Positions 126 to 63,749 of a stretch of 64,000 nt of DNA are shown piece after piece. The position numbers and the translations under genes are program-made. The stretch is taken from positions 356,512 to 420,511 of IMG/VR virus record IMGVR_UViG_3300029922_000001. One strand, 5' to 3'. This DNA is from a virus. Under the pieces are notes generated by a model. That model saw only the letters and a list, made by a program, of their open reading frames with translations. It was not told the origin of the DNA and did not search any database. Position 1 is the first letter of the stretch; every line of letters starts with the position of its first letter.

Positions 126-143
126 ACTGTTTATAATAGCATG

Positions 144-425
144 ATGACAGCTATAGAAATTTTACAAGCAGCCTTGGATAATGATTTACGCATTATCACT
201 TTTATCAATGATGGTCAAAATCCACAAATTAAAGGTAAGTATCTAGCACAATTCTTTGTCTTCCCAGTAAAATCAACTGATATTGTTCTAACTGGTGAAG
301 GTGATACTATCGAACAAGCTATTTTAGATATTCAGCCATATTTCGAAGAGTATGGATATAATATGCCACCCAAAATATCAGAAAAAGATGAAGAAATTGA
401 TCTAGAAACGAAAACTGAGGTATAA
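144..425 (+). CDS. hypothetical protein, 93 aa
   Basis: Acidic small protein with a HicB/antitoxin-like feel (TGEGDTIEQAILDIQPYFEEYG) but no diagnostic motif, so function is unknown. TATAAT lies at 132-137 and the ATG at 144 is exactly six bases further, which is why I prefer it over ATG 141 or the longer upstream reading. The last codons GAG GTA TAA double as the GGTATAAT -10 of the next gene. Confidence 0.7.
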   Translation: MTAIEILQAALDNDLRIITFINDGQNPQIKGKYLAQFFVFPVKSTDIVLTGEGDTIEQAILDIQPYFEEYGYNMPPKISEKDEEIDLETKTEV

Positions 426-434
426 TAAGATCAA

Positions 435-878
435 ATGGGAAATCTAAATCTAAAAACATCAGACACACCTGAAAAGCAAATGGAAGCTTCTGGTTGTTTG
501 ACTCTAATCTTTTGTCTATGCCTTACACCGTTCGTTTGGTATTACATGACAATGTACAACGCTTATGTTTTTGCTGACATCTGGAATTGGTTCATGCCTG
601 TTCTCTTTGGCGTAAAAGCAATTACTATGTGGCACGCTGCCGCTATCGGTTCACTCTCTGGATTTATCACTTCCGGTCTTTATGTGTTGCACGTTAGTAC
701 TCAACAGGAATTTAATAAGATTAAGAAGGCTTTGAATATTCCTGATGAACAATTGCTTACAGGATGGGATGTTCTTGGGCATTTCGTTAAACTTTGGGGT
801 ATTGGTATTATGGTTATCACTGTTATGTGGTTCTTTGCCTATGTCGTCAATGTGTTCTTCTTCACGAAGGGCGGTTAA
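435..878 (+). CDS. multi-pass membrane protein
   Basis: 147 residues with about three hydrophobic segments (near residues 20-45, 55-85 and 115-142), including the C-terminal stretch ending VNVFFF. It should sit in the host inner membrane; role unknown. The -10 TATAAT (421-426) overlaps the preceding stop codon, leaving eight bases to the ATG. Its 3' end abuts the promoter hairpin of the next gene. Confidence 0.7.
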   Translation: MGNLNLKTSDTPEKQMEASGCLTLIFCLCLTPFVWYYMTMYNAYVFADIWNWFMPVLFGVKAITMWHAAAIGSLSGFITSGLYVLHVSTQQEFNKIKKALNIPDEQLLTGWDVLGHFVKLWGIGIMVITVMWFFAYVVNVFFFTKGG

Positions 879-880
879 AT

Positions 881-911
881 ATTTCCCCAATAGGGGAAAT
901 CGAGGTATACT
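881..911 (+). promoter_or_regulatory. leaderless-type promoter, palindromic example
   Basis: Best example of the window-wide promoter family. ATTTCCCC (881-888) and GGGGAAAT (893-900) form a perfect 8-bp inverted repeat with loop AATA, followed by CGAGG and TATACT (906-911). The ATG at 918 is six bases later. CCCCAA to TATACT spacing is 15 bases. Confidence 0.85.
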
Positions 912-917
912 GACAAT

Positions 918-1289
918 ATGATTTACTTTATCTTATATGTATTGTTTGTATTAGTTTCTTTTGTGCTGGTGTTAAAATTCTACCCTTATGAATTCGCTGA
1001 ATGCAAAATTGATGATTCGTCTCAAGAATACGATCTAGAAATTAATCCTATTACGAATCGACTAGAAGTTGTAAAAACTAAAGACATTGACGAAAGCTAT
1101 GTGTTTGAATTTTTATTGTTATATCCATTCTATATGCTTAAATTGCTATTTAAGTTTTTAGCATATTGGACATACCGTACATTTAATAAGGGTATTACCA
1201 AAGAACAGAAATTAGAAGCAGAACTTCAGGATTTAAACCAGGCAATTAAGGAAGCAAAAGCAGAATTAGATAGTCTAAAAGAGGTATAA
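918..1289 (+). CDS. membrane-anchored coiled-coil protein
   Basis: 123 residues: an N-terminal transmembrane segment (about 2-21), a second hydrophobic stretch (about 70-90) and a charged helical C-terminus rich in Glu, Lys and Ala that looks coiled-coil. -10 TATACT at 906-911, six-base gap. Ends GAG GTA TAA, which is also the -10 of a tiny downstream ORF. No recognisable family. Confidence 0.7.
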   Translation: MIYFILYVLFVLVSFVLVLKFYPYEFAECKIDDSSQEYDLEINPITNRLEVVKTKDIDESYVFEFLLLYPFYMLKLLFKFLAYWTYRTFNKGITKEQKLEAELQDLNQAIKEAKAELDSLKEV

Positions 1290-1296
1290 TTCAAGC

Positions 1297-1323
1297 ATGT
1301 TAGGCGAAATTATCCGCAAATGA
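1297..1323 (+). CDS. tiny leaderless ORF, 8 aa
   Basis: ATG lies exactly six bases after TATAAT (1285-1290) and the frame stops after eight codons, inside the next promoter. Geometry is the same as for real genes here, so it may be a leader peptide or a decayed gene start. Coding status is unproven. Confidence 0.25.
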   Translation: MLGEIIRK

Positions 1324-1337
1324 GGTATACTTAGCAA

Positions 1338-2145: not shown

Positions 2146-2149
2146 TAAT

Positions 2150-2876: not shown

Positions 2877-2893
2877 AGTGTATTTAAATAAAT

Positions 2894-3030: not shown

Positions 3031-3117
3031 ATGAGATGTGAAGGCTATCGTGGTTCTTTTGATAAATTTTTAGAAGCTTATGGCGATCTTGATAAATTTC
3101 CCCAATGCCTCAATTAG
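3031..3117 (+). CDS. small ORF, 28 aa
   Basis: ATG AGA TGT GAA GGC TAT... encodes EGYRGSFDKFLEAYGDLDKF and ends inside the next promoter, which supplies the PQCLN tail. EGY is reminiscent of the start of ribosome-modulation-factor-like proteins found elsewhere in the window, but the NPY and Trp part is absent. Possibly a truncated gene. Confidence 0.4.
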   Translation: MRCEGYRGSFDKFLEAYGDLDKFPQCLN

Positions 3118-3132
3118 AGGTATACTCGAATC

Positions 3133-3492
3133 ATGAACAACAAATTAATGATTATCGACAAAGAAGCTATTCTACGTGCTTGGCTGACTGGAGATAATCT
3201 GGAGAAAATGGATAGCAATTACAATGCTAAAGTATTTACTTGTGAATACAATGGTGTAACTCTTTCTACACGTTGTAGGAGAGTAATGGAGCGTCCTAGT
3301 TCTTTTGCACCTTATCAAGAGGTTGATGGATTGCTTTATGAATTCACGAAAGACGATAAAACAGTCCTTGATTGGAATGGTGAACTTGATCCAAATGCTC
3401 AACGTAATTCCCCTAATGGCTATTCAAGTACATTTGAATATTTTATCAAGAACTATGGGCATCCTGAAAATTTCCCCAACAGGGTAAATTGA
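3133..3492 (+). CDS. hypothetical protein, 119 aa
   Basis: -10 TATACT 3121-3126, six-base gap to ATG. No known motif. The C-terminus ENFPNRVN is encoded by the CCCCAA box of the following promoter, and the same FPNRVN tail recurs in the next gene. Confidence 0.7.
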   Translation: MNNKLMIIDKEAILRAWLTGDNLEKMDSNYNAKVFTCEYNGVTLSTRCRRVMERPSSFAPYQEVDGLLYEFTKDDKTVLDWNGELDPNAQRNSPNGYSSTFEYFIKNYGHPENFPNRVN

Positions 3493-3506
3493 GGTATACT
3501 TAAATT

Positions 3507-3800
3507 ATGAAATATGTTTATGAATATCATAAAGAAAATCAAACTTTTACACTTACTGATGGCATATGGAACACTGTAACAATACGTCAAACTCATTCAT
3601 CTAAATATCAAGTATCTGGTCAAGTAGGAAATCATCGTGAAGGTGGTTGGACTGATAATTTTTCTTTACAAGATGTTGTTGATGGTAAAATGGATCATTA
3701 TTTAAAATACATTGAAGATTCAAAATCTTTCATAGAAACACTGAAACAATTATCTCAAAATTTAATTAATGATAAGAATTTCCCCAACAGGGTAAATTGA
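3507..3800 (+). CDS. hypothetical protein, 97 aa
   Basis: -10 TATACT 3495-3500, six-base gap. Beta-rich N-terminus (YEYHKENQTFTLTDGIWNTV). Ends NFPNRVN like its neighbour because the downstream promoter overlaps the gene end. Function unknown. Confidence 0.7.
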   Translation: MKYVYEYHKENQTFTLTDGIWNTVTIRQTHSSKYQVSGQVGNHREGGWTDNFSLQDVVDGKMDHYLKYIEDSKSFIETLKQLSQNLINDKNFPNRVN

Positions 3801-3814
3801 GGTATACTACGATC

Positions 3815-5468: not shown

Positions 5469-5482
5469 GGTATACTTAGATC

Positions 5483-5827
5483 ATGTTTGAACTATTAGAC
5501 ATCACCCGAATAGAAAATCATCTTCGTATTGATCCTCGTACTGGCACTGTGTATTTCGGTGTTGGATTGCGTAAGGAAATGGAAACCAAAAAGTATCCAC
5601 ACTTTGATTTTGCTTACGATGCGGAAAACAATCGTTTGGCATTCATACGACACGTCACTAAGAACAACCAGCGTTTGACTATCAATTCAATCGGTTGTAT
5701 TACCTCTCCACGTCTTCAAAGAGTTTTGAAGAAGCTAATGACTGAAGCTAAGACATTCAATCATACGCAAATTGAAGTCACTACACTTCGTGAAAACACT
5801 GCCTTTATTATCAATCTAGGAGCATAA
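5483..5827 (+). CDS. hypothetical protein, 114 aa
   Basis: -10 TATACT 5471-5476, six-base gap. The pattern HLRIDPRTGTVYFGVGL is echoed by RLSIRENGNMFFNGPL in the next gene, so the two look like distant tandem paralogues with a shared beta-rich fold. Codon choice is slightly less AT-rich than its neighbours. Confidence 0.7.
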   Translation: MFELLDITRIENHLRIDPRTGTVYFGVGLRKEMETKKYPHFDFAYDAENNRLAFIRHVTKNNQRLTINSIGCITSPRLQRVLKKLMTEAKTFNHTQIEVTTLRENTAFIINLGA

Positions 5828-7560: not shown

Positions 7561-7594
7561 TCCCCAATGATGGAAATTAAGGTATACTATAAAC

Positions 7595-8879: not shown

Positions 8880-8917
8880 AAAACCCCCAACAAAGAATCC
8901 ATAGGTATACTCTAATT

Positions 8918-9735: not shown

Positions 9736-9773
9736 AAAATCCCCAATAGGGGATTCATAGGTATACTGTCGTC

Positions 9774-10414: not shown

Positions 10415-11575
10415 ATGGAAGAATTTACAGAAGAAATTAATGAAACATCTAGAAAATTAGCTAGTATTCAAAGGATTTTAGCCTTGGAACCAATTCCAGG
10501 TGCGGATCGTATTGAAACAGCTACAATTTTGGGATGGAAGGTCGTAGTAGAAAAAGGAAAGTATAGAGTTGGGCAATTAGTTGTATACGCTGAAATCGAC
10601 AGTTTATTCCCTGCTAGACCTGAATATGAATTTCTTTCTAAGACTGGTTATCGTATCAAAACCATTCGATTAAAACAGCAGGTAAGCCAAGGCATTGTAT
10701 TTCCATTGTCAGTTTTAAAGTGGAATGATAACATCAAAATTATTGGTGACGAAGTGTTGGATGATAATTATGATTACATTAATGATATGTGGAATGAAGA
10801 ATCGCCTTTGCTATTACTTCAAGATATGAATAATGATTCAAATCCTGCTATTTTTCTTGCTGAAGGAACTGATGTTACTGAATGGATTGGTGTAACCAAA
10901 TATGAACCAGTTGTACCTGCACAATTACGGGGAGTAGCTAGAGGTGGTTTTCCAAGTTGGTTGCATAAGACGGATGAATGTCGGATTCAGGCTATTCCTG
11001 ATTTATTAGAAAGACACATTGGTACAACGATTAGAGGACACGAAAAGCTCGACGGCAGTAGTTGTACTATGTATATTCGCAATGGTGATTTTGGAGTATG
11101 TTCTAGAAATTTGAATTTAAAGCACACTGAAGGTAATAGTTTCTGGGAAATAGCTATGAAGTTCCAAGTTGAAGCCATGATGAAACATTGTTTCCCAGAT
11201 TATAATTTTGCAATCCAAGGCGAACTAATCGGTCCTGGCATTCAAGGTAACAAATATAATCTTAGAGAAACAACGATTAGATTGTTTAATGTGTTTGATA
11301 TTGATAAAGATGAATACTTGCATGATCTTGAATCAAAGTATGTTGCTCAACAATTAGGTTTAGAGTGGTGTCCTTGGGTGATGGATTATGTTATTACTGA
11401 AAACACCACAGTTGAAGAACTATTGTTGTTAGCGCAAGGTCCATCGGCTTTAAATCCTAACCAGGAAAGAGAGGGGTTGGTTTGGCGACCATTAGTTGAG
11501 TCTAAAGATGATAAAATCGGAAGATTTTCCTTTAAGACTATTTCTAATAAGTTCTTGCTAAAAAACGGAGAGTAA
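10415..11575 (+). CDS. RNA ligase, Rnl5/DraRnl-like
   Basis: 386 residues. The N-terminal part (about 12-100) resembles the OB-like domain of DRB0094-type ligases (GADRIETATILGWKVV). The nucleotidyltransferase core follows: motif I EKLDGSS (Lys211 as AMP acceptor), motif III QGELIG (Glu270), motif IV EGLVW (353-357) and motif V FSFKTISNKF (371-380). The family joins RNA 3'-OH/5'-phosphate ends in duplexes via ATP. -10 TATACT 10402-10407, seven-base gap. One of three ligases here. Confidence 0.85.
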   Translation: MEEFTEEINETSRKLASIQRILALEPIPGADRIETATILGWKVVVEKGKYRVGQLVVYAEIDSLFPARPEYEFLSKTGYRIKTIRLKQQVSQGIVFPLSVLKWNDNIKIIGDEVLDDNYDYINDMWNEESPLLLLQDMNNDSNPAIFLAEGTDVTEWIGVTKYEPVVPAQLRGVARGGFPSWLHKTDECRIQAIPDLLERHIGTTIRGHEKLDGSSCTMYIRNGDFGVCSRNLNLKHTEGNSFWEIAMKFQVEAMMKHCFPDYNFAIQGELIGPGIQGNKYNLRETTIRLFNVFDIDKDEYLHDLESKYVAQQLGLEWCPWVMDYVITENTTVEELLLLAQGPSALNPNQEREGLVWRPLVESKDDKIGRFSFKTISNKFLLKNGE

Positions 11576-12218: not shown

Positions 12219-12431
12219 ATGAAAAACGAAGTTGTGCGCAAAGAAGGATATGATGCTTATATGTTGTGTTTAGAGAGATATAAGGATGCCCCCAATATTA
12301 AAAACATTAATATGTGGGCGTTAGATAATCCATATTCTAATGAATCTAATGAATCTAATGAATACGATGAATGGATGATGGGTGCATTAGATGCGGCTGT
12401 AGAACATCCAAAACCCCCAACAGATAATTAA
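12219..12431 (+). CDS. RMF-like small protein
   Basis: 70 residues; EGYDAY, DNPYS and W-MGALDAA occur in the order typical of ribosome-modulation-factor/CrpP-like proteins (GY..A...NPY...W..G...A), with an SNES triplet repeat in the middle. Starts immediately after the previous stop. RMF dimerises ribosomes in E. coli; whether phage versions act on ribosomes is inference. Confidence 0.5.
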   Translation: MKNEVVRKEGYDAYMLCLERYKDAPNIKNINMWALDNPYSNESNESNEYDEWMMGALDAAVEHPKPPTDN

Positions 12432-12447
12432 GAGGTATACTCAAATC

Positions 12448-13075: not shown

Positions 13076-13855
13076 TTGGGAAATTCGAGGTTAATAAAAA
13101 TAAAGATAATTTCCCAATATAAGGACTACTATGACTCAGGAATGCAATACGGATTTGATCCTGATTTGCTTTTTGTGCGCGAAACTAAGGAAATCGAAGT
13201 TCCCAAAACACGTAATGATTATAAATACATCCAAAGTATTCTAAGTCTATGTCATGATTATTACAACACGGTTTACTTCTTGTTCTTCTGTGGTAAAGTA
13301 TATCCATTAGTGCGTATTTGGGGCTGTACTGCTCTGTATGGCACTGTTACGGACTATATTGAAGAACAACACGCCATTCTAATTAAAGAGCCTCACAACC
13401 GATTAGCACTAGAGTTCGTGAATGGTTCTGAAAAGACTTGGAGAAATGTTTCTTTCAACTTTAGTGAAAAGGGACTGATTGCTCTCGAAAAGCATTTACA
13501 AACAGTGGTAGTACCTAGTGAAATCTTTATTGAAATGGATGCACCTTATTTTGTTGTGAGTGAGTCAGGTAAGAGTGGCTTAAACATTATTAAGAATCCA
13601 CCCCTCAATAAGTATTCATTCTTTAAGTTGTTAGATCCATTCAATTGTTATCAAGAAATCCGAATGTATATGGGTAATGTCTTAACCACAATTAATATGA
13701 TGCCATATACAACTGGTGGCGACAAGGTAGTAGCGCAACAACATGGATTTGATGATATGTCTTTCCGAACTGCCGCACCAGGACAAAAGAAGTTGAATAG
13801 AAAAATTAATAGATTACGTAAGAAGGGAGAATTAATCCCCAATGACGTAATCTAA
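13076..13855 (+). CDS. conserved phage hypothetical, start codon lost
   Basis: About 250 residues; KIKIISQYKDYYD near the start looks like the natural N-terminus of a phage protein family. There is no ATG there. The upstream promoter reads TTCGAGGTTAATA instead of GAGGTATACT, and the in-frame codon where the start should be is AAG. The only in-frame start-like codons are TTG 13076, inside the promoter, and an internal ATG after about 23 codons. Either the promoter/start was deleted or a rare start is used. Basic C-terminal tail KKLNRKINRLRKKGE. Confidence 0.6.
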   Translation: MGNSRLIKIKIISQYKDYYDSGMQYGFDPDLLFVRETKEIEVPKTRNDYKYIQSILSLCHDYYNTVYFLFFCGKVYPLVRIWGCTALYGTVTDYIEEQHAILIKEPHNRLALEFVNGSEKTWRNVSFNFSEKGLIALEKHLQTVVVPSEIFIEMDAPYFVVSESGKSGLNIIKNPPLNKYSFFKLLDPFNCYQEIRMYMGNVLTTINMMPYTTGGDKVVAQQHGFDDMSFRTAAPGQKKLNRKINRLRKKGELIPNDVI

Positions 13856-13869
13856 GGTATACTCCGATC

Positions 13870-14441: not shown

Positions 14442-14497
14442 AAGAATTAACTGCAATAGAAATCCCCCAATAGAGAAAAAGAAGGTATACTGAACGC

Positions 14498-15049: not shown

Positions 15050-15085
15050 AATCCCCAACAGTGGAATAAGAGGTATACTACGATC

Positions 15086-16977: not shown

Positions 16978-17013
16978 ATCCCCAATAGGGGGAATTAAGG
17001 TATACTTACGACC

Positions 17014-17979: not shown

Positions 17980-18015
17980 ATCCCCAACATACAAAAAATA
18001 GGTATACTATCATTC

Positions 18016-18462: not shown

Positions 18463-18496
18463 TCCCCAATGTGGGATTATGAGGTATACTAAAAAC

Positions 18497-24802: not shown

Positions 24803-24854
24803 ATAAGATTGGGGTGGAAATCCCCAACACGCGAAAATCAGGTATACTCAAAAC

Positions 24855-25807: not shown

Positions 25808-25843
25808 AATACCCAATGAGGGATTTCGAGGTATACTGCGATC

Positions 25844-26389
25844 ATGAATGAAAAGAACCAACCTAAGTATTTTGTCAAGTTTACAGGTACTTATGACGAA
25901 TTGGAATCTCTGAATTGGAGATATGGTAAGGCTTTTGCTCGTGAATATGAGTTCTACGCTAAAAATCCTGATGGTTCAAAGCACGGTCAAGAATTGAGAA
26001 TTTGGAAACATTATGAAGGCTATGTAGAATTAGATGATTTTCATGATCTTTCTTATGTGTTTTTTCTTGCAATTCAAAATAAAGAGCATCTTAATTGGTA
26101 TCAACCTGCACCAGACAAAAATGGAGTAGAGTTTGGATGTTATTACCTATGGATGAATAAAAAAGAGGGCTATTTAAAAAACTACATCCCTGGTGACAAT
26201 CCAAATAGTTTTATTTATAGAGAAGATTGGACTGATGAACAACTCAAAGAATATCACAAAACTTGGAGAGAAGCCAACATTGTCACTGAAGTTGTAGAAG
26301 AAATTGAAATGATGTTTGCAAAAGGAATGATTCAATTGGTTCCTTATGACGAATTTCCAAAGACAGAAATCCCCAATAAGGAAAATTAA
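25844..26389 (+). CDS. hypothetical protein, paralogue of 8918 gene
   Basis: 181 residues sharing YFVKFTG, GKAFA.EYEFY and AIQNKEHLNW with the 8918 product. -10 TATACT 25832-25837, six-base gap. C-terminal IPNKEN comes from the next promoter. Confidence 0.7.
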   Translation: MNEKNQPKYFVKFTGTYDELESLNWRYGKAFAREYEFYAKNPDGSKHGQELRIWKHYEGYVELDDFHDLSYVFFLAIQNKEHLNWYQPAPDKNGVEFGCYYLWMNKKEGYLKNYIPGDNPNSFIYREDWTDEQLKEYHKTWREANIVTEVVEEIEMMFAKGMIQLVPYDEFPKTEIPNKEN

Positions 26390-26404
26390 GGTATACTCTG
26401 ATCA

Positions 26405-27099: not shown

Positions 27100-27134
27100 A
27101 TCCCCAACAAACCAGTTTTAGGTATACTTAAACC

Positions 27135-29384: not shown

Positions 29385-29459
29385 ATGACACAAAACGCCC
29401 ACAAACTAATAGTAATGGGAATTAAAACCAACAAAACATATAAGGAAATAAAAATATAA
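29385..29459 (+). CDS. small ORF preceding RNA ligase, 24 aa
   Basis: Five bases after TATAAT 29374-29379; MTQNAHKLIVMGIKTNKTYK... ends on the first base of the ligase ATG (TAATG). Looks like a coupled leader or small basic peptide. Confidence 0.5.
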   Translation: MTQNAHKLIVMGIKTNKTYKEIKI

Positions 29460-30481: not shown

Positions 30482-30527
30482 TTATTTGGGGAATCCCCAA
30501 TCGAGAAAATTAAGGTATACTAAGATT

Positions 30528-31630: not shown

Positions 31631-31657
31631 CCCCAATAGGAGAATTAGAGGTATACT
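31631..31657 (+). promoter_or_regulatory. orphan family promoter before RNA locus
   Basis: CCCCAATAGGAGAATTAGAGGTATACT is a standard member (-10 at 31652-31657), but no start codon follows at the usual distance; transcription would enter the tRNA-like locus about 90 bases on. Together with 57079 it shows the family also serves RNA genes. Confidence 0.6.
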
Positions 31658-31692
31658 CTAGACAACACAATCAGGAAAATCTTCAAGAAAGC

Positions 31693-31721
31693 TTGACAAA
31701 AGACTTCAAGATAGGTATAAT
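31693..31721 (+). promoter_or_regulatory. consensus sigma70 promoter for RNA locus
   Basis: TTGACA (31693-31698), 17 bases, TATAAT (31716-31721): a perfect host-type promoter, unlike the CCCCAA family. Predicted start lies just upstream of the tRNA-like element at 31746. Confidence 0.85.
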
Positions 31722-33401: not shown

Positions 33402-33444
33402 ATTTAAAATCCCCCAGCAGACATATTTAAGGTATACTATAATC

Positions 33445-36134: not shown

Positions 36135-36192
36135 CAAAAAAAACAAGAGAAGAGATAATCCCCAATAAGGGGATTCGAGGTATACTCTGAAC

Positions 36193-36536: not shown

Positions 36537-36572
36537 AATCCCCAACAATCAAATTTAAGGTATACTCTAATC

Positions 36573-42852: not shown

Positions 42853-42863
42853 TATAATAGAGT

Positions 42864-43980: not shown

Positions 43981-44038
43981 GATATAAGTATACCTTAATT
44001 TTGAGTGTTGGGGATTTTTAAAAAAGTCAATAAAAGTA

Positions 44039-44066: not shown

Positions 44067-44153
44067 AAAAACAATCTCATGCGGGGATGTTCGGAAGTCA
44101 AGGCGACTAAAGAAAATCCCCAACACAAAAATTTGAGGTATACTGGACACACA

Positions 44154-45473: not shown

Positions 45474-45488
45474 GACTTATAATAAGTC

Positions 45489-46174: not shown

Positions 46175-46258
46175 TAAAAATCCCCAACACCCTGATTTGA
46201 GGTATACTAAACAAAAGGATATATCGAAATTGGGATATAGAAAAGGCGATGACAACAA

Positions 46259-47311
46259 ATGTTTAATGTAGAAAATCTTGAGAAAATGGTTACTGAGGGA
46301 TATATTCACAAGATTCCTCATGAAAATGGATTATATCATCTATTAAATTATACGCCTTTGGCTGCGTTCAAAAAGGTGTGGAATTTTGAAACTCTTAATA
46401 GTCGTGGTACGGTTATTGATAATGAATACAATATCATTTCAAAACCTATGGAAAAATTTTTTAATGATTTCGAAGTCACTGAAGGTTTAATTCCTTATCA
46501 TCTTCCATTTGATGCATTTACAAAATTGGACGGTTCTTGTATCATTGTGAGACGATTAGGTGATGAACTTCTTGTGAACACTCGTGGCTCATTTAAATCA
46601 CCGCAATCACAAATGGCTCATTTATTGTTAAAAGAAAAGTATAACATTAATGATTTTGATCCAAATTACACTTATATTTTCGAATATATCGGGTTAGAAA
46701 ATCGTATTGTGGTGTTATATAAAGAAAGCGATGTTGTTCTTTTAACAATGTATGATATGCGAACATTAGAAGAAGTTGAATATGATCAATTCCCTAAACA
46801 TTTCAATATTGTTAAGCGATATGATGGTCTTGATATTGAAACAATGAAATCATTAGACATTCCAAATGAAGAAGGTTTTGTTGTTAGATTTTCTAACGGT
46901 TTCCGTATGAAACTGAAGATGAAAACTTATATGTCACTTCATGGAATTGTTACAGGATTGAGTTCTAGAAAAGTTTGGGAATTAATGAAAGATGGAAAAT
47001 CTCTAGAAGAAATTGCATCTGCTTTACCAGATGAATTTTATGAATTCGCAACTAAAACAAAAACACAACTTCAGGATAAGTTTGATGCAATTGAAAGCAA
47101 GGTGCAGATTGCTCAGATGGGACTTGCGTTCGCAGGTTTAACTGAGCGAAAGGATAAAGCATTGTGGATTCAGGCTAATGCTAAGGATGTTGCACCATAC
47201 ATGTATGCATGGCTTGATGGTAAGGATTTCACCGCTGGTATTTGGAAGTCAATCTATCCTCCATATATCAGCCCTTTTGAAGAAAGAGCTAAGTTAACAG
47301 GAGAGAACTAA
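46259..47311 (+). CDS. RNA ligase, T4 Rnl1-like
   Basis: 350 residues. N-terminal SRGTVIDNEYNIISKPMEKFFN matches Rnl1 proteins; motif I TKLDGS (Lys89), motif IIIa-like YIFEYIG, motif IV EEGFVVRF and motif V MKLKMKTYMSLH follow. T4 Rnl1 repairs cleaved tRNA anticodon loops. -10 TATACT 46203-46208 with a 50-base leader, so not leaderless. Confidence 0.85.
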   Translation: MFNVENLEKMVTEGYIHKIPHENGLYHLLNYTPLAAFKKVWNFETLNSRGTVIDNEYNIISKPMEKFFNDFEVTEGLIPYHLPFDAFTKLDGSCIIVRRLGDELLVNTRGSFKSPQSQMAHLLLKEKYNINDFDPNYTYIFEYIGLENRIVVLYKESDVVLLTMYDMRTLEEVEYDQFPKHFNIVKRYDGLDIETMKSLDIPNEEGFVVRFSNGFRMKLKMKTYMSLHGIVTGLSSRKVWELMKDGKSLEEIASALPDEFYEFATKTKTQLQDKFDAIESKVQIAQMGLAFAGLTERKDKALWIQANAKDVAPYMYAWLDGKDFTAGIWKSIYPPYISPFEERAKLTGEN

Positions 47312-47917: not shown

Positions 47918-47958
47918 TTTGATTTCCCCAATGGGGGAAACCGAGGTATACTTTGCTT

Positions 47959-48159
47959 ATGGATCGTATTAAACAGAATCGCTTAGATAATCAGCGTGAT
48001 AATTCCACCTTAGACCAAACTCAACGCAAGAGATTAATGGGAACAACACATTGGTTTGCTTTTGTTTCAGGTTGGATTAATGCAGCAGAAGCTATAGATA
48101 TTCTTAATGTCTATGCACGAATTGATGAAGCTAATGCGCGTTTTGGATTTCCCCAATAA
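47959..48159 (+). CDS. hypothetical protein, 66 aa
   Basis: ATG 47959 six bases after TATACT 47947-47952 (a TTG two codons upstream is in frame but inside the untranscribed spacer). Ends GFPQ from the next promoter. Unknown. Confidence 0.6.
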   Translation: MDRIKQNRLDNQRDNSTLDQTQRKRLMGTTHWFAFVSGWINAAEAIDILNVYARIDEANARFGFPQ

Positions 48160-48183
48160 AGGAATAAAAGGTATACTCTAATC

Positions 48184-49226: not shown

Positions 49227-49264
49227 ATAATCCCCAATAGGGGAAACCGAGGTATACTAAGACT

Positions 49265-50091: not shown

Positions 50092-50289
50092 ATGGCTTTT
50101 AGAACAGATTTAATTATTGAAGCATGTAGATTGACATTGGAAGAAATTCGAGTTCCTACCGAAGATGAACTAAAACATATTATTCCAGCTATTATTGAAT
50201 ATGCAAATTTTGCTCATTGTCCAATTAATGAAGTAGCACCTTCACTAATTTGTGCTACTCGTTATGCTTTACTTGAAAATCCCCAATAG
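50092..50289 (+). CDS. hypothetical protein, 65 aa
   Basis: Two bases after the previous stop. Helical; ends LENPQ because the stop TAA lies in the next promoter's CCCCAATA. Unknown. Confidence 0.6.
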   Translation: MAFRTDLIIEACRLTLEEIRVPTEDELKHIIPAIIEYANFAHCPINEVAPSLICATRYALLENPQ

Positions 50290-50313
50290 ACAAACAAGAG
50301 GTATACTCCCAAT

Positions 50314-50870: not shown

Positions 50871-50931
50871 TAATTGAATTATTCGAACAATTCGAAATCC
50901 CCAATAGAAGAAATTGAGGTATACTCTGATC

Positions 50932-51894
50932 ATGAAAACAAAAACATTTTCTCGTGAAATTAGTTTAATTAAAGCAGCTAATGAAGTTTATTCTTTATGT
51001 GATAGCTACGGTATTAAAAAAGGATGTTTAGGTGCTTTTGATAAAAACATTAAGCCTTTTGGTTTAAAGAGAGAAGATCTTAAAGAAATTTTGAAATATG
51101 TTTCTATTCAAAACAAAATTAGAACAAATAGATATAATTTAAGTTTAAAGATAAATTCTAAAAAACAGGGATATACTTTAGTTCCAAATATAGTTAAGAA
51201 ACTTAATGATTTAAAAATTAGGACTATTAGTTATAATGTTAAAAATGTTCTTAGAACATCTAATCTAAAAATTGTATTATCTAATAACCCAAATAAGTTT
51301 AATGCAACTCATACTTCTACTACTGATTATGGTGGAAGATACCCAGAGACAACACATTATAACACTATTACAGTACCTAGTAATTGGCGACTAAGAGTGG
51401 ATAAGTTAGGAATTAGTAATTTAGGTAACATGTTTACATTAGACGCTTTTCCTTGTGAAACCAAAGGTGATTTTAAATTATATTCTGCAATGTGGATTTC
51501 TCAAGGTCGTGGTTATAATTTAAATGTCCATAAAGGTTTTATTGCGGTAAAAGACAATGAATCATGTCATGCATTGACATCTAGTTCTGCTATTTCTGGA
51601 TTAAAAAGAAAATTATCTTTAACTAAAGAAGAAAAATTAGCAATGGGATTAAAACTTATTAATTCATCGTTGTCAAAAAAAGTAAAACAAAATAATCATC
51701 TTTATGTTACTCTTCAAGATGCTTATACTGTAGGTTCCTGTGATAGCGGAATTAGATCATGGTGTAATCATGTGGGTTTAAATTATTATGATGGTAAAGC
51801 GCCGATTGAATTAGTTATGAAAGGTTATGAATTAGCACCATTATCAGAAGTTAGAAGAACACTTTTATATACACTTAGAAATTCTCCCCAATAG
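50932..51894 (+). CDS. hypothetical protein, 320 aa
   Basis: ATG 50932 six bases after TATACT 50920-50925. Basic, Asn/Lys-rich; C-terminal part QDAYTVGSCDSGIRSWCNHVGLNYYDGKAPIEL looks globular and conserved. No family recognised. Ends NSPQ from the next promoter. Confidence 0.65.
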   Translation: MKTKTFSREISLIKAANEVYSLCDSYGIKKGCLGAFDKNIKPFGLKREDLKEILKYVSIQNKIRTNRYNLSLKINSKKQGYTLVPNIVKKLNDLKIRTISYNVKNVLRTSNLKIVLSNNPNKFNATHTSTTDYGGRYPETTHYNTITVPSNWRLRVDKLGISNLGNMFTLDAFPCETKGDFKLYSAMWISQGRGYNLNVHKGFIAVKDNESCHALTSSSAISGLKRKLSLTKEEKLAMGLKLINSSLSKKVKQNNHLYVTLQDAYTVGSCDSGIRSWCNHVGLNYYDGKAPIELVMKGYELAPLSEVRRTLLYTLRNSPQ

Positions 51895-51918
51895 AAGAAA
51901 TTGAGGTATACTCGAAAC

Positions 51919-52167: not shown

Positions 52168-52230
52168 AAAATCCCCAATAAGGAAAATTGAGGTATACTA
52201 AACACAACGAACGGAGAATACGAAAACAAA

Positions 52231-53181: not shown

Positions 53182-53259
53182 AAATCCCCAATGGGGAAAA
53201 TCAAGGTATACTGGGAATGTAAGAAACATTCTCAGTAACGAGAAGAAAAATAGGAGACT

Positions 53260-55452
53260 TTGAACGGTACTATTAATATGATTCAAAAAGACACAGCAGG
53301 TAACGCAACAGTAGTAGGAATGAACGCGCAATCAGGATTTGCAATCCTTGCATCCGCGAAAGCATTCAAGATTTTGTCATCGGGTATTTATAAGAATAAG
53401 ATTCTTGCCCCAATTCGTGAACTTAGCACTAATGCAATTGACATTCATCGCAAGTTCAATGTTGACCGTCCTTTCGAGGTTCAACTTCCTAACAATCTTA
53501 ATCCTCATTTCGTGGTCCGTGACTTTGGACCAGGTTTGTCTAAACTGCAAATTATGGGCGATAAGGAATTGGACATTCAAGGAATTTACACTACGTATTT
53601 TCTTTCAACTAAGGAATCTGAGGCAGATCAGATTGGTTGTCTTGGATTGGGTACTAAATCCCCATTTGCTTATGTTACGTCTTTCACTGTAACCTCTTAC
53701 TTTGATGGTCTAAAATCAGTGTACGCTATGTACCTTGATGGTGATATGCCAAACGTTAACCTAGTCGGTAGTGAACCTTCTGATGAACCCACCGGATTGG
53801 AGGTAAGCTTTGGAGTCAATGTCTACGACTTTGGTACGTTCCGAAACGAACTACAGAAACTTTATTCCTTCTGGACTGAGGCTGAGCGTCCTGTAGTAAC
53901 TGGACAAACGGTATCTTATACCAATTACATGGAAGGTAAAACTAAGGGTAACGGTTGGTTCCTGTCAGATCAGACATACGGTAATCTGTTTAGTCGTGGT
54001 TACTTCCATGTAGTAATGGGGAATATCGCCTATAAGGTGAACTGTTATGATGGTCCTAATAAGGCTTTTGAAGAGATTGCAGAATATAGCAATTTGATCT
54101 TCGAATGCGATCTTGGCGAAGTCAACTTTACTGCATCTCGTGAAGAGTTGGAGTTGGACAACAACACGGTTGCCGCAATTGTCAAGCGAATTGAAGACTT
54201 TAAGCAGAGCATTGTTGTTTCATTAGAGGAACAGGTTAACAATGCCGGTAGTCTTTGGAAAGCTAGACATCTTGTTGCAGATTTCAAAAAGTCTCACTCT
54301 CTGGTTAAGCGACATGATTTCAAATATCACGGTATGACTCTACTCTGGAATAATCGTGTTAAGTTCACTAAGACACCAATGGTACTTTATGTCCGAAATC
54401 ACGATCAGAAGCTTCACAAGAAACAGGATATTACAAGTTTCTATATCGGAGATTCGTCCCGTAATACAACGTTCTATTTCAATGATCTTGAAAAGCCACA
54501 ACATACGCATAGTCGAATGAACTTCCACCTTAGAACTCATAAGACTTCAAATGAAGTAGTATTGATTGACGGGGTAAGCTTCAGGGATGCTAAAAGAATC
54601 TTTGGACTGTCAAAAGATCAGATCACTAGGGTTTCAACGCTTGACATTCCTGTAAGAACTCCACGAATGCGACGGGATAAGAATTTGGACTTTGATGATC
54701 AAATCGAATTCTGCAATAAGCACATTATGAAGTTAAGCTACTATCGTTGGGACGACTGCGTTCTACCTAAGAGCGAACCGGTTTACTACTTTGTTGACCT
54801 GAAGGGACAAAAGCCACAATTTGAAGATGAAGAGATCACTAGTTTCGATAACGTAGTGCGATTTATGAGAGAATGCACTAGCTACGATGTTACAACAGTG
54901 TATGGCGTTCGTGGTCCTGCTAAGAAGCTAGTCGAAAATTCAGATGCTTGGGTAAACATTTATGATCTTTTCAAGGTGGAACTAAAGAAGTATCTTGATA
55001 AGTATCCTCTTGCGGAATATGCAAGTAAGGACTATCTCAAGACTAATGTAATTAAAGAATTGTTGAAGATCAAAGAAGTGTTGGCTTTGAATCCGGTTAC
55101 TGAGAATGGTGACATATGCAAGAAGATTACAAAGATTGAGGCTGACGTTATCGTTCCTTCAACCTGGGAATGGAAGATGGATTACTACACTTTCCAGCGA
55201 TTGGCTTATAAGATCGGAGTGAGTTTGCCAGAATCACACAATAAGGACACTACAACTCTTTCACAAGATGTTAAAGATATCCGTGTTGAATATGCTACAC
55301 AATTCCCACTAATGCAGCATCTTAGCTATTCAGTTGAGGGTAAGAAGGAATACCTAAGACTTTGGGTAGTCGATCAAGAAGCTAAGGCACTTGCAAATAC
55401 AGTTCAAGAATCAAAACTAGAGGATACCGTTCAAGTCTCACTGACAGTCTAG
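53260..55452 (+). CDS. rIIA: RIIA-like GHKL ATPase-domain protein
   Basis: 730 residues. GHKL-type ATP-binding signature: N-box IRELSTNAID (52-61), G1 DFGPGLS (88-94) and G2 GLGTKSPFA (129-137). N-terminal FAILASAKAFKILSSGIYKNKI mirrors T4 RIIA. The frame begins with TTG 53260, four bases after AGGAG; ATG 53278 is the other candidate and aligns better with T4. Acts with RIIB. Confidence 0.85.
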   Translation: MNGTINMIQKDTAGNATVVGMNAQSGFAILASAKAFKILSSGIYKNKILAPIRELSTNAIDIHRKFNVDRPFEVQLPNNLNPHFVVRDFGPGLSKLQIMGDKELDIQGIYTTYFLSTKESEADQIGCLGLGTKSPFAYVTSFTVTSYFDGLKSVYAMYLDGDMPNVNLVGSEPSDEPTGLEVSFGVNVYDFGTFRNELQKLYSFWTEAERPVVTGQTVSYTNYMEGKTKGNGWFLSDQTYGNLFSRGYFHVVMGNIAYKVNCYDGPNKAFEEIAEYSNLIFECDLGEVNFTASREELELDNNTVAAIVKRIEDFKQSIVVSLEEQVNNAGSLWKARHLVADFKKSHSLVKRHDFKYHGMTLLWNNRVKFTKTPMVLYVRNHDQKLHKKQDITSFYIGDSSRNTTFYFNDLEKPQHTHSRMNFHLRTHKTSNEVVLIDGVSFRDAKRIFGLSKDQITRVSTLDIPVRTPRMRRDKNLDFDDQIEFCNKHIMKLSYYRWDDCVLPKSEPVYYFVDLKGQKPQFEDEEITSFDNVVRFMRECTSYDVTTVYGVRGPAKKLVENSDAWVNIYDLFKVELKKYLDKYPLAEYASKDYLKTNVIKELLKIKEVLALNPVTENGDICKKITKIEADVIVPSTWEWKMDYYTFQRLAYKIGVSLPESHNKDTTTLSQDVKDIRVEYATQFPLMQHLSYSVEGKKEYLRLWVVDQEAKALANTVQESKLEDTVQVSLTV

Positions 55453-55760: not shown

Positions 55761-55797
55761 AAATCCCCAATAGAAAAATTCGAGGTATATTTATTTT

Positions 55798-56016: not shown

Positions 56017-56059
56017 TTTTAAAAATCCCCAATAAAGAATTAAGAGGTATACTGCCAAC

Positions 56060-56884: not shown

Positions 56885-57070
56885 TTGATAAGTCAATTAC
56901 TCACAGCTAAAGCAGTGGGCTTGTTTTTGGTCGTGATAGGGGTTGCAGTCAGCACCATGACAATATTAGTATTGGGTTGGGTTGTAGGCATTGGGGTATT
57001 ATTATTATTGTTTGCTATGGTTAACTGGTTTGTCAACATCTGTTGTCCACGTAAAATCCCCAATAGGTGA
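56885..57070 (+). CDS. small membrane protein, TTG start
   Basis: 61 residues beginning at TTG 56885, no nearby ATG. Two transmembrane segments (about 8-30 and 31-52). No promoter of the usual type; perhaps read from an upstream transcript. Its end KIPNR lies in the tRNA-Arg promoter. Confidence 0.45.
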   Translation: MISQLLTAKAVGLFLVVIGVAVSTMTILVLGWVVGIGVLLLLFAMVNWFVNICCPRKIPNR

Positions 57071-57084
57071 ATTGAGGGTATACT
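57057..57084 (+). promoter_or_regulatory. family promoter driving tRNA-Arg
   Basis: CCCCAATAGGTGAATTGAGGG then TATACT (57079-57084); the tRNA 5' end is eight bases later, so the primary transcript would begin at or within a base or two of the mature tRNA, needing little or no 5' trimming. Confidence 0.75.
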
Positions 57085-57092
57085 AGAAACTT

Positions 57093-57165
57093 GTCCCGGT
57101 AGCTCAGTGGATAGAGCAACAGCCTTCTAAGCTGTGGGTCGCAGGTTCGAATCCTGTTCGGGACG
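57093..57165 (+). tRNA. tRNA-Arg(UCU)
   Basis: Acceptor GTCCCGG/TCGGGAC, anticodon stem ACAGC/GCTGT with loop CTTCTAA (anticodon UCU), T arm GCAGG-TTCGAAT-CCTGT. CCA not encoded; CGAGA follows the discriminator G. Reads AGA, common in this genome. Confidence 0.97.
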
Positions 57166-57189
57166 CGAGATTTATGGTATAATAACATC

Positions 57190-57432: not shown

Positions 57433-57466
57433 TCCCCAATAAAAAAATAACAGGTATACTCTGATC

Positions 57467-57595: not shown

Positions 57596-57629
57596 TCCCC
57601 AACGATTGGATTAAAGGTATACTGCACTT

Positions 57630-58736: not shown

Positions 58737-58782
58737 AAATAGGATATTTCCCCAATAGGGGAATTCGAGGTATACTAAATCT

Positions 58783-59016: not shown

Positions 59017-59721
59017 ATGAATGTCGTACACTGTTCCCTTGTTGGTAGTCGAATGCATGGATTAAATACCGAAAATTCTGATTATGATTATCGAACGATT
59101 TATAAAATGGATCTGAAAGATATTCTTGATCCTTTTATTAAACCTGAAGAAAAAAAGGTATTAGAAGATGGACAAGATGTTGAAGAATTTGAATTAAGGC
59201 ATTTTTTGAAGATGTTATGTGGAGGCAACGGTACCGCATACGAAATCCTTTGGAGTGATCAATACACAACGTCACCAGACTTTCAAGTATTCAAAGACAA
59301 TAAGCACTGGTTCTTGAATACAAAGGGTATCTGTAATGCTCATATTGGTTATGCCGATTCTCAGCTAGAAAACTTTTTAGAGAAAGTCGAAAAAGATCCT
59401 ACCGCATTAGATAAGTCTAATGCAAGGAATCGAATTCGAAAAGCTTCTGTAGCTGGTATCCGTATTCTATGTCAAGCAGAACAGTTGCTATTGACAGGTG
59501 ATTTTGCACCAAAGATTGCTGACTATAATAAGAATGTAGCAGATTATCTATTGGAACAGAAGTACACTCCTGATGATCAGATTAATGCAGATTTTATCAC
59601 TAGGAATATTGAGATAATCGAAGGACTGAAATTTGATGTAAAGAAACTCCATGAGAATGTTCCTGTAGTTCTGCCTCAATATGATCAGATTGTTGAAGCT
59701 TTGGTCGCAATTTATTCATAA
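59017..59721 (+). CDS. RlaP-like nucleotidyltransferase
   Basis: 234 residues. LVGSRMHGLNTENSDYDYRTIY (8-29) is the GS...SDxDxR catalytic motif of Pol-beta-type nucleotidyltransferases of the YcgL/RlaP group, followed by a helical C-terminal domain. RlaP proteins are linked by genome context to RNA ligases; here three ligases are in the same genome. TATAAT 59002-59007, nine-base gap. Confidence 0.75.
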   Translation: MNVVHCSLVGSRMHGLNTENSDYDYRTIYKMDLKDILDPFIKPEEKKVLEDGQDVEEFELRHFLKMLCGGNGTAYEILWSDQYTTSPDFQVFKDNKHWFLNTKGICNAHIGYADSQLENFLEKVEKDPTALDKSNARNRIRKASVAGIRILCQAEQLLLTGDFAPKIADYNKNVADYLLEQKYTPDDQINADFITRNIEIIEGLKFDVKKLHENVPVVLPQYDQIVEALVAIYS

Positions 59722-59851: not shown

Positions 59852-59888
59852 AATTCCCCAATAGGGGAAACCGAGGTATACTCAGATT

Positions 59889-60366: not shown

Positions 60367-60776
60367 TTGTGTATCGCGTAGAGACAGTTAGCGGGGTAGG
60401 ACCCTACATAGAACGTAATGCACCACAAATACTTTATGATGCTGTAACCCATCCTTCATGCAGAAATGATGAATTGCCAGGATGTAACAACTATAAGAAG
60501 GTAGAAGATAAACATTATTGGGGATTTCGAACGATTGAACAGTTGCATGATTGGTTCCATTACATTTATGAAAAATTTGAAAGACATAGTTATGTAGTGG
60601 CTATATACAATGTCTCTAAAGATTATGTCTTGGAGTTTAAATCACAGTTAGTGTTTGAAAAAGATAAATCAGAATTGCAAGAAACATTTCGTGTCAATAA
60701 TTTCTTTGAGGCATTTAGTGGTGAGCATCAACTCTATTTGAATCTCCCCAACACAAAAATTGTAGGTATACTCTAA
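60363..60776 (+). CDS. hypothetical protein, 137 aa
   Basis: YRVETVSGVGPYIE at the N-terminus and WGFRTIEQLHDWFHYIYE in the middle recall a widespread small phage protein type; function unknown. The end LPNTKIVGIL is encoded by the next promoter. Confidence 0.65.
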   Translation: MIVYRVETVSGVGPYIERNAPQILYDAVTHPSCRNDELPGCNNYKKVEDKHYWGFRTIEQLHDWFHYIYEKFERHSYVVAIYNVSKDYVLEFKSQLVFEKDKSELQETFRVNNFFEAFSGEHQLYLNLPNTKIVGIL

Positions 60777-61012: not shown

Positions 61013-61051
61013 AATCCCCAACACCAAAAAGAGAGGTATACTAGGAACATG
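61013..61051 (+). promoter_or_regulatory. family promoter, duplicated copy 1
   Basis: 39 bases from AATCCCCAACACC to the ATG are identical to 61274-61312, including the normally variable spacer and the six-base AGGAAC gap. Confidence 0.8.
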
Positions 61052-61258: not shown

Positions 61259-61273
61259 TGGGATAATTTAGAT

Positions 61274-61312
61274 AATCCCCAACACCAAAAAGAGAGGTAT
61301 ACTAGGAACATG
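61274..61312 (+). promoter_or_regulatory. family promoter, duplicated copy 2
   Basis: Identical over 39 bases to 61013-61051. The genes flanking the copies are paralogous (61049 and 61837), so the segment probably duplicated around the gene at 61310. Confidence 0.8.
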
Positions 61313-62040: not shown

Positions 62041-62096
62041 GTATTGAGGGATTCGAAAGAATCCCCCAATACGAGTTTAAGAGGTATACTTAGATC

Positions 62097-62525
62097 ATGC
62101 TAGATGAAGCATTTTATTCAGCTTTCACAAGAAAAAAACTATTTAGCAGTTATATTAAAATAGGAGATTATTCTTTTCAAGAAGGTGCTGATCTAGTGTT
62201 AAACAAAACACGATTGGAGTTTACCTATCGTATGGGGAAAAATCCTTATAACGTAGTATTCCAAGCTAAGAAACTATCACGTACAGGCAAAAGACTACTA
62301 ATATCTCATCCCTATTGCAAACATTGTGGAATAGAGGGTGTTAAGTGGGGATTAGAAGCTAAAAAATACCATGTTCAAATGATTCTGTATTCTGAGAACA
62401 ATGTACCTCTAACCATTGATCATATTCTACCCAGATCAAAAGGTGGTTCTGATAGTCCAAAGAATTATCAAGTGCTATGTTATGCTTGTAATCAACGTAA
62501 AGCTGACTTTGAAAATCCCCAATAA
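62097..62525 (+). CDS. HNH endonuclease
   Basis: 142 residues. CKHC (74-77), [14 protein letters not shown] (105-117) and CYACN (128-132) form a zinc-stabilised HNH site. The N-terminal 70 residues may bind DNA. Phage HNH proteins act as homing or packaging nucleases. -10 TATACT 62085-62090, six-base gap; ENPQ at the end comes from the next promoter. Confidence 0.8.
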
Positions 62526-62549
62526 AGAAATTTGAGGTATACTCTTATC

Positions 62550-62972
62550 ATGGAAAACGCACAACTTTTTGCACAACGAGCTTATGGATATGTCGGCAAG
62601 CAAACAGATCGTCCTAATAGTATAACTGATGAATGTGTAACTATTAATATTAATCATCAGGTAATAAAACGCCTTATTTGTATATTACGTGATCATCCAA
62701 AGTATTCTATGACTGATAGATATTCTGAGTTTATCAGTGATATGATTGATAAAATCATTATGAATAAAACAACATTAAAAGGACTTTATATACCCAAAGT
62801 TACAAAATCATTTTTTGTTATATCTCCAAATGGTGAAATTATTATAGTTAGCAATCAATCGAAATTTTGTAAAGATAACAATTTAGACTCAACAAGTTTT
62901 AGTAGAATGCTTAACGGTAAAAGAAAATCATCTCAAGGTTGGACTAAATATATCCCCAATAAAGAAATTTAA
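62550..62972 (+). CDS. protein with NUMOD-like C-terminus
   Basis: 140 residues from ATG 62550, six bases after TATACT 62538-62543. The C-terminal SFFVISPNGEIIIVSNQSKFCKDNNLDSTSFSRMLNGKRKSSQGWTK (about 91-137) fits the NUMOD1-type DNA-binding module usually fused to HNH or GIY-YIG homing nucleases. It lies directly after an HNH gene. The N-terminal domain is unassigned. Confidence 0.6.
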   Translation: MENAQLFAQRAYGYVGKQTDRPNSITDECVTININHQVIKRLICILRDHPKYSMTDRYSEFISDMIDKIIMNKTTLKGLYIPKVTKSFFVISPNGEIIIVSNQSKFCKDNNLDSTSFSRMLNGKRKSSQGWTKYIPNKEI

Positions 62973-62986
62973 GGTATACTCTGATC

Positions 62987-63247
62987 ATGAAAGTAAGAGC
63001 TAATTCGAGTTATATTTATCACCCTTGTCTTTTGGATGTTTGCGATGGTAGAACAGACCTAGTAAAAGGTGATCTTGTGGTAGTTAAGAATCTACCAGGT
63101 TGTCCTAAGTGTAATATAATGAATCATGCACACGTCTATAAAGATGATAAATTTGCTGGTCTAGTTTGTTGCGCTTCATTGTATTCTCCAAAGGAATACC
63201 CTAAGTTGCTTGCCGAATGGGAAGCAAGGAATGCACAAAATGCTTAA
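62987..63247 (+). CDS. hypothetical Cys-rich protein, 86 aa
   Basis: -10 TATACT 62975-62980, six-base gap. CPKCN and VCC with other Cys/His suggest a metal site. Overlaps the next gene by eight bases. Confidence 0.65.
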   Translation: MKVRANSSYIYHPCLLDVCDGRTDLVKGDLVVVKNLPGCPKCNIMNHAHVYKDDKFAGLVCCASLYSPKEYPKLLAEWEARNAQNA

Positions 63248-63476
63248 AAAAGTACATAACTTCACCATTAAATTGGTGATTACTATTATATTGGGAGTAA
63301 TGTTACTGCCAATGATTGCATCTTGTGTTAAAGTGATTCCAGCTTTGCATCCTTGGGGAATTGGACCATTAAAATGTCACTATCTTGTGACTATAATCCC
63401 AAAGTATGAGCAAAGAAAAATTGTTGATGAATTGGAACAACCAGGACCATGTTATCACAATAACCATAAGAAGTGA
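63240..63476 (+). CDS. lipoprotein-like protein, 78 aa
   Basis: ATG 63240. Signal segment KLVITIILGVMLLPMIASC with lipobox IASC (Cys near residue 29), then a short Cys-containing domain ending GPCYHNNHKK. Envelope-located. Confidence 0.65.
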   Translation: MLKKVHNFTIKLVITIILGVMLLPMIASCVKVIPALHPWGIGPLKCHYLVTIIPKYEQRKIVDELEQPGPCYHNNHKK

Positions 63477-63483
63477 TGTATAA

Positions 63484-63520
63484 CGGAATATATGAAGAAG
63501 AAAAAAACTCATATATTCCG
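63484..63520 (+). promoter_or_regulatory. 12-bp inverted repeat over a start codon
   Basis: CGGAATATATGA (63484-63495) and TCATATATTCCG (63509-63520) pair perfectly, 13-base loop, followed by TTTTCATTTT. The ATG of the next gene lies in the left arm. Could be an attenuator, a translation-blocking hairpin or an operator. Confidence 0.7.
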
Positions 63521-63674
63521 TTTTCATTTTGATGCAACATTAGTAGATGTTGATGTAGAAGCTTTAAACATTAGAGAAGCTTTTCGTATTATGAACAAAG
63601 AACATCCTGAGTATAGTACAGGATTTATGATATTACGAAAAGATGAATCAGGATCTTGGATTCAGATTGATTAG
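63492..63674 (+). CDS. hypothetical protein, 60 aa
   Basis: Starts MKKKKTHIFRFHFDATLVDV; TATAAC at 63479-63484 with a seven-base gap. Its first codons form the inverted repeat above. C-terminal part ALNIREAFRIMNKEHPEYSTGF resembles the EEAI-type helix of the 61049 family. Its stop codon is part of a TAGTGTATAGAT module. Confidence 0.6.
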   Translation: MKKKKTHIFRFHFDATLVDVDVEALNIREAFRIMNKEHPEYSTGFMILRKDESGSWIQID

Positions 63675-63712
63675 TGTATAGATGAAAGGTTTTCCTGAAA
63701 ATGGGGAAACAT
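63672..63712 (+). repeat. TAGTGTATAGAT-type module, copy 3
   Basis: TAGTGTATAGATGAAAGG followed by GAAAATGGGGAAAC, as at 43766 and 56831. Confidence 0.6.
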
Positions 63713-63749
63713 AAATCCCCATTAATCAAAATTAAGGTATACTTTGTTT

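Follow-up and report, generated by a model that had tools for sequence, protein, structure and literature searches.

Leaderless genes lying directly behind a -10 box have been described in bacteria, including the -10-motif genes of Deinococcus-Thermus and those termed TA-led (PMC12340547, PMC3160421). The middle and late transcripts of the Thermus phage phiYS40 are also reported to be leaderless, with a shifted IF2/IF3 balance (Sevostyanova 2007, in the account given by PMC3594737). Repeated elements ahead of phage genes are known as well, among them the PeSLs of T4-like phages, which are promoter-plus-stem-loop cassettes, and the SAS and ESAS repeats of cluster K mycobacteriophages (PMC3203893). 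For the jumbo phage AR9, leaders of 26-491 bases have been described, and the literature we searched did not describe leaderless expression for any jumbo phage. Here, we describe a stretch of 64,000 bases (the window; bases 356,512-420,511 of the 441,498-base virus record IMGVR_UViG_3300029922_000001 from IMG/VR) in which small open reading frames (ORFs), arrayed in one direction, are preceded by a promoter-like element, class 1, that usually ends six bases before the start codon. We consider it very probable that most of the promoter-proximal genes would be expressed as leaderless messages.

Comparison with known systems

The components of this arrangement are already known: leaderless genes behind -10 boxes from bacteria and phiYS40, and repeated promoter cassettes from the PeSLs. 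What is new is their combination, namely a strict upstream box, two promoter classes each at a fixed distance, about 120 genes with GGTATAMT-N6-ATG together with 33 belonging to the second class, and a gene for IF3. As in bacterial TA-led and -10-motif genes, a -10 box stands a few bases before the ORF and the mRNA is predicted to lack a leader; unlike here, the bacterial genes are chromosomal and carry TANNNT, usually without a conserved upstream element. PhiYS40 is likewise a large phage whose -10 boxes peak at a gap of 6, where the gap is the number of bases between the end of the -10 box and the start codon. The present phage differs in its upstream CCCCAA and strict, regional TATACT class, its second class at gap 5, its greater number of copies and its own IF3. 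The initial annotation had called dozens of such units in a phage striking; phiYS40 is a precedent for dozens of leaderless transcripts, and such a strategy has rarely been seen at this scale in a phage.

The PeSLs and the HGTV-1 motif resemble class 1 in being promoter cassettes that recur ahead of numerous small ORFs in a hyperplastic region, in some cases with inverted repeats. However, most class-1 copies have no stem and the element abuts the start codon, PeSL leader lengths having been compared for T4 only. The SAS and ESAS repeats, too, are asymmetric, lie directly 5' of many gene starts and run in nearly one direction, but SAS is GGGATAGGAGCCC, with a ribosome-site-like core, whereas the present element reads as a promoter: its consensus is TCCCCAA-N13-GGTATACT, with no core resembling GGGATAGGAGCCC.

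We applied the same method, scoring the -10-to-ATG gap peak and the share of ORFs with a Shine-Dalgarno sequence, to the present phage, T4 and SCTP-2. In the present phage, gap 6 is found in 34 of 118 window ORFs, and Shine-Dalgarno sequences precede 14-15% of ORFs both in the window and elsewhere. In phiYS40 (NC_008584), 12 of 105 ORFs have TANNNT at gap 6, over a background of 2.7. No gap peak is present in T4 (40-75 kb; 58% Shine-Dalgarno) or in Salicola phage SCTP-2 (43%).

Consensus and distribution of the class-1 element

Numbered from the A of the ATG as 0, the class-1 consensus comprises an A/T-rich segment at -38 to -35, TCCCCAATA at -34 to -26, A-rich positions at -21/-20, A(G)G at -15 to -13, TATACT at -12 to -7 and a hexamer in which position -3 is A in 80% and position -1 is C or T, followed by ATG. 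The upstream box, TCCCCAA, lies 15 bases 5' of the -10 box, which is TATACT or TATAAT with GG before it. Spacing is constant in the strict set, with exactly 13 bases between CCCCAA and GGTATACT and 15 to TATACT, so that the approximately 15 bases first described are correct only when counted to TATACT. CCCCAA, first described for all copies, is carried by about 50 of the roughly 65 in the window, the remainder being -10-only.

The window has 65 copies of GGTATACT in the + direction and a single - strand copy, and an ATG follows the + copies at gap 6 in 47 cases and at gap 7 in five. For GGTA(C/T)A(A/C/T)T the corresponding counts are 57 and seven, with 0-5 at each other offset, and a 31-base weight matrix recovers 54-62 + sites and one - site from the window, compared with 0-0.2 from first-order shuffles. 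These data bear out the initial annotation's estimate of about 70 copies fixed six bases from the start codon, with a distance distribution sharper than chance, and the array extends beyond the window. Genome-wide, CCCCAA-N13-GGTATA has 94 copies on + and one on - (0 for a reversed-pattern control), the forward copies all falling between 341.6 kb and the end of the record, that is, in the terminal 100 kb. GGTATAMT-N6-ATG has 111 + and nine - copies (control, 0).

Sites were also defined blind to the start codon, solely by CCC.A-N13-GGTA(C/T)A(A/C/T)T, in the last 121 kb (n=98); beyond that region, our statistics come from five 20-kb stretches and genome-wide pattern counts, and genes throughout are mechanical ORF calls. 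A start codon was present at a gap of exactly 6 in 80 of these 98 sites, compared with 0-10 at each other offset, and it was ATG in 77 of the 80 (96% AUG). At four sites the frame at gap 6 is very short, one of them being a tRNA with a chance TTG. Gap 7 accounts for four further sites and gap 9 for five, each of the latter consisting of the hexamer plus three bases (ACA or AAC) with a pyrimidine-A step at the expected start. The 80 copies contain 55 distinct hexamers and 71 distinct spacers, and because of this diversity they are not the product of one recent amplification.

Class-1 copies ahead of a tRNA and of leadered genes

The full class-1 element is not restricted to positions next to start codons. 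It precedes a gene for tRNA-Arg(tct) (promoter at 57058..57084, tRNA at 57093..57166, both +), an untranslated RNA whose first base lies 8 bases after the -10 box. It also precedes genes whose start codons are 22-65 bases from the -10 box, leaving leaders of 16-50 bases. Such leadered genes include, with promoters on the + strand, an RNA ligase gene (46182..46208; gap 50, ATG 46259), the gene at 52231 (52173..52199; gap 31, ATG 52231, GGAG in the leader) and the rIIA-like gene (53186..53212; TTG 53260, AGGAG in the leader). Their leaders carry AGGA, GGAG, GAGG or AAGG, which is well spaced in two or three of them and rather long-spaced in the rest. Because the same element precedes both the tRNA and leadered genes with a Shine-Dalgarno-like sequence, class 1 is, on its sequence context, a promoter and not a ribosome site. 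Since the tRNA begins 8 bases after the -10 box (57077-57093), its primary transcript may need almost no 5' trimming.

Where the element lies 5-7 bases from the ATG, none of 82 genes has a Shine-Dalgarno sequence ending at -11 to -5, compared with 24% of other ORFs and 4% of all ATGs. These genes share three features of bacterial TA-led genes: a -10-like box some 12 bp before the start codon (gap of about 6), no normally spaced Shine-Dalgarno sequence (0/82) and AUG as the start (77/80). We also considered later start codons as the true starts and rejected them, as in-frame starts preceded by a Shine-Dalgarno sequence within 30 codons were found in 2 of 74 genes versus a background of 3 of 67.

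Predicted leaderless expression

Bacterial transcription usually starts at a purine preceded by a pyrimidine. At the 80 gap-6 sites, the base before the start codon is C in 69%, T in 30% and A in 1% (a pyrimidine in 79 of 80), compared with A in 55%, T in 25%, C in 12% and G in 8% of other ORFs. Of the 18 copies without a start codon at 6, 12 have pyrimidine-purine at that position and neighbouring offsets reach at most 8, although the sample is small. Given a -10 box ending at -7, the expected +1 would be the A of the ATG. Leaderless translation requires AUG (PMC4611024), and leaderless mRNAs are spared by kasugamycin (PMC5230787).

We propose that transcription from class 1 would start at the A of the start codon or up to three bases upstream, and that mRNAs beginning 5'-AUG would be translated by the 5'-AUG route, in which the 70S ribosome binds and no Shine-Dalgarno sequence is needed. 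With the start falling there, most promoter-proximal genes would be leaderless, while ordinary leaders would serve the later genes of a unit and a small number of promoter-proximal ones, such as the rIIA-like gene. The fixed distance, the absent Shine-Dalgarno sequence, the pyrimidine/A context, the 96% AUG, the tRNA and leadered uses and a second ATG-abutting class together make leaderless expression very likely. The leaderless initiation put forward in the initial annotation is hence the interpretation that best fits several independent sequence tests, with the amendment that its dozens of one-gene units often hold between one and a few genes. Several points weigh against it. The start sites are predicted from the DNA sequence, the gene calls are mechanical ORFs, and a GAGG or AAGG at -16 to -13, present in roughly 90% of copies, could base-pair with 16S rRNA were transcription to begin upstream. 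In addition, the tRNA has a gap of 8 and some genes have gaps of 7 or 9, so that a few transcripts would carry one to three extra bases.

The fixed GAGG/AAGG invites a different reading, in which the element would serve translation or ribosome binding, GAGG would act as a long-spaced Shine-Dalgarno sequence and transcription would begin upstream; the mycobacteriophage SAS, start-associated repeats with a ribosome-site-like core, would be a parallel. This reading leaves the -10 and CCCCAA boxes, at their fixed promoter-like spacing, unexplained, and it must contend with an element that also precedes a tRNA and genes starting 22-65 bases from the -10 box. The spacing from GAGG/AAGG to the start is 12 bases, outside the 4-9 optimum, whereas Shine-Dalgarno sequences of other ORFs here lie at -11 to -5. 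GAGG is no less usual in copies whose start codon is elsewhere, out of its reach (50%), than in copies with a start codon at 6 (61%). We regard a ribosome signal as very improbable.

Alternatively, a PeSL-like promoter cassette may have spread by recombination and carried the start codon along, which would make the distance historical rather than functional. A single compact cassette does recur in an array of small ORFs, and stems of at least 6 pairs spanning CCCC...GGGG are found in 15 of 98 copies where shuffled spacers predict about 4. However, hexamers and spacers vary widely among copies, the gap-9 copies keep the start-site context, the leadered copies have a Shine-Dalgarno-like sequence and an unrelated second class keeps a different fixed gap. 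We judge a purely historical distance very improbable, although cassette spread can be reconciled with leaderless expression as the route by which copies multiplied. It is still harder to credit that many sites start several bases 5' of the ATG, yielding a mixture of mRNAs with 5' untranslated regions of 3-10 bases that are not strictly leaderless. Gaps of 7-9 exist, and bacterial start-site choice generally varies by a few bases, but at gap 6 such transcripts would have to start inside or right behind the -10 box, and the pyrimidine/A context is strongest precisely at the A of the ATG; this mixture is hardly probable at all. Leaderless expression from class 1 accordingly remains the reading we favour.

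A second promoter class

TATAAT without CCCCAA likewise peaks near the ATG. A distinct class 2, TATAATA-RRNY-ATG, appears outside the terminal array, with a gap of 5, no -35 information and a pyrimidine at -1 in 92% of copies. It occurs 33 times genome-wide (19 + 14 copies; control, 0). Two copies fall in the window, TATAAT + AGAGT at 42853..42858 (+, gap 5, ATG 42864) and TATAAT + AAGTC at 45478..45483 (+, gap 5, ATG 45489), neither with a -35. In the five sampled 20-kb stretches, 17 of 113 ORFs have a gap of 5 and 10 a gap of 6, over a background of 0.7 per offset. Given class 2 and these peaks outside the window, the predicted leaderless structure is not limited to the window, and class 2 would act elsewhere in the genome as class 1 does here. 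Lacking -35 information, class 2 also matches the -10-only promoter class of a phiYS40-type programme. In that programme, host promoters with -10 and -35 boxes serve the early genes and the leaderless genes are middle or late; in the present genome, the fixed upstream box marks the terminal array of small ORFs.

Transcription and translation factors

A search of the phage for RNA polymerase beta with Pfam PF00562 gave no match. Two sigma-like proteins are encoded: one of 201 residues with region 4, near TerL, and one of 193 residues with regions 2 and 4 (L011:1081-1686, +; L012:1456-2037, -). Neither had relatives in the phage collection by tblastn. Because the class-1 -10 box is sigma-70-like and a TTGACA-N17-TATAAT promoter is present, we infer that class 1 would be read early by the host RNA polymerase or a modified form of it; a phage sigma factor may direct transcription from class 2.

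A full-length IF3 gene is located on the - strand (L031:1495-2025, about 254.5-255.0 kb of the genome), with a -10 box (GGTATAAT) 13 bases from its first ATG. The predicted 176-residue protein has both domains and is identical to E. coli IF3 at 47 of 153 aligned residues. R112 is kept, and R99, R116, R147 and R168 of the E. coli protein are replaced by S, E, Y and K; we take these four arginines to be functionally important, although a literature check did not confirm this.

Huge phages are known to carry IF3 genes (PMC7162821), and leaderless translation is inhibited when the IF3 level is high (PMC9031893), an effect through which a phage IF3 could switch or tune translation. A link between this IF3 and leaderless translation is speculative. 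The wider proposition, a huge phage with mostly leaderless promoter-proximal expression, two fixed-distance classes and its own IF3 tuning or switching between leaderless and leadered translation, is one we put forward tentatively and think rather unlikely. If leaderless expression is correct, well over 100 genes would be expressed through a translation route normally opposed by IF3, and the phage would offer a natural system in which to study how ribosomes select leaderless mRNAs. It would also give one concrete reason why some huge phages have few Shine-Dalgarno sequences, a scarcity for which a link to phage ribosomal protein S1 has been drawn (PMC7162821); IF3-tuned leaderless reading, if real, would explain that lack as well. 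The fixed gap provides a straightforward sequence criterion by which starts and promoters can be annotated in genomes of this kind.

Occurrence in other genomes

The initial annotation proposed seeking the same motif in related phages. A scan of IMG/VR for the element with its 13-base spacing returned 0 matches, and six other huge phages contain 0-2 copies of GGTATAMT-N6-ATG. Queries of viral_contigs with the AAA+ protein, rIIA, TerL and a DnaK-like protein confirmed no relatives; for TerL and other proteins, cultured phages offer remote relatives only. The same scan of GTDB genomes gave five matches, one site per genome. As these are single sites, three of them the same gene start in related Treponema, no host genome using the class-1 family was found in GTDB. 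In all three Treponema genomes, the gene preceded by TCCCCAA-N13-GGTATACT-N6-ATG is the same one (MSIAQNLA..., probably of the YggS/PLPBP family).

Class-1 promoters and neighbouring genes in the window

On the + strand, class-1 promoters with gap 6 are located at 885..911 (CCCCAATAGGGGAAATCGAGGTATACT, ATG 918), 3100..3126 (ATG 3133), 3474..3500 (ATG 3507), 3782..3808 (ATG 3815), 7562..7588 (ATG 7595), 8885..8911 (ATG 8918), 9741..9767 (ATG 9774), 12415..12441 (ATG 12448), 13837..13863 (ATG 13870), 14465..14491 (ATG 14498), 15053..15079 (ATG 15086), 18464..18490 (ATG 18497), 24822..24848 (ATG 24855), 25811..25837 (an ACCCAA variant, ATG 25844), 27102..27128 (ATG 27135), 30495..30521 (ATG 30528) and 36540..36566 (ATG 36573). 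Further along they lie at 47926..47952 (ATG 47959), 48151..48177 (ATG 48184), 49232..49258 (ATG 49265), 50281..50307 (ATG 50314), 50899..50925 (ATG 50932), 51886..51912 (ATG 51919), 55765..55791 (TATATT, ATG 55798), 56027..56053 (ATG 56060), 57434..57460 (ATG 57467), 57597..57623 (ATG 57630, an AAA+/RuvB-like protein), 58750..58776 (ATG 58783), 59856..59882 (ATG 59889), 60746..60772 (ATG 60779), 61016..61042 (ATG 61049), 61277..61303 (ATG 61310), 62064..62090 (ATG 62097, an HNH protein), 62517..62543 (ATG 62550) and 62954..62980 (ATG 62987). Those at 16980..17006 (ATG 17014), 17982..18008 (ATG 18016) and 26371..26397 (ATG 26405) have a gap of 7, and that at 44118..44144 (ATG 44154) a gap of 9 (6 + ACA). 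The window's only minus-strand copy, at 43987..44013, precedes a short ORF of 39 codons at gap 6.

All 11 start codons first listed as examples are correctly placed, but CCCCAA is absent at 5483, where GGTATACT (5469..5476, +, gap 6) has a weak TTGAAT -35 at a spacer of 17, and is CCCCAG at 33445, the start of a variant class-1 promoter (GGTATACT at 33431..33438, +, gap 6). Perfect CCCC...GGGG dyads cover the upstream box in a minority of copies (885-911, 9741-9767, 36160-36186, 47926-47952, 58750-58776 and others). The copy at 31631..31657 (+) has no start codon near it and is followed about 30 bases downstream by a consensus TTGACA-N17-TATAAT; the pair (31631-31720) may mark a small RNA or a double promoter.

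The window contains three tRNA genes, and an Rfam scan found tRNAs only. Ribosomal protein S21 was searched for in the phage and not found, nor was a T4-type Gp23, in a search that had no positive control. Other genes in the window encode the rIIA-like protein (53260-55452), the AAA+/RuvB-like protein and several RNA ligases. The RNA ligases occur with an RlaP-type RNA-repair protein in this single early-type region (10415-11575, 29459-30481, 46259-47311 and 59017-59721).

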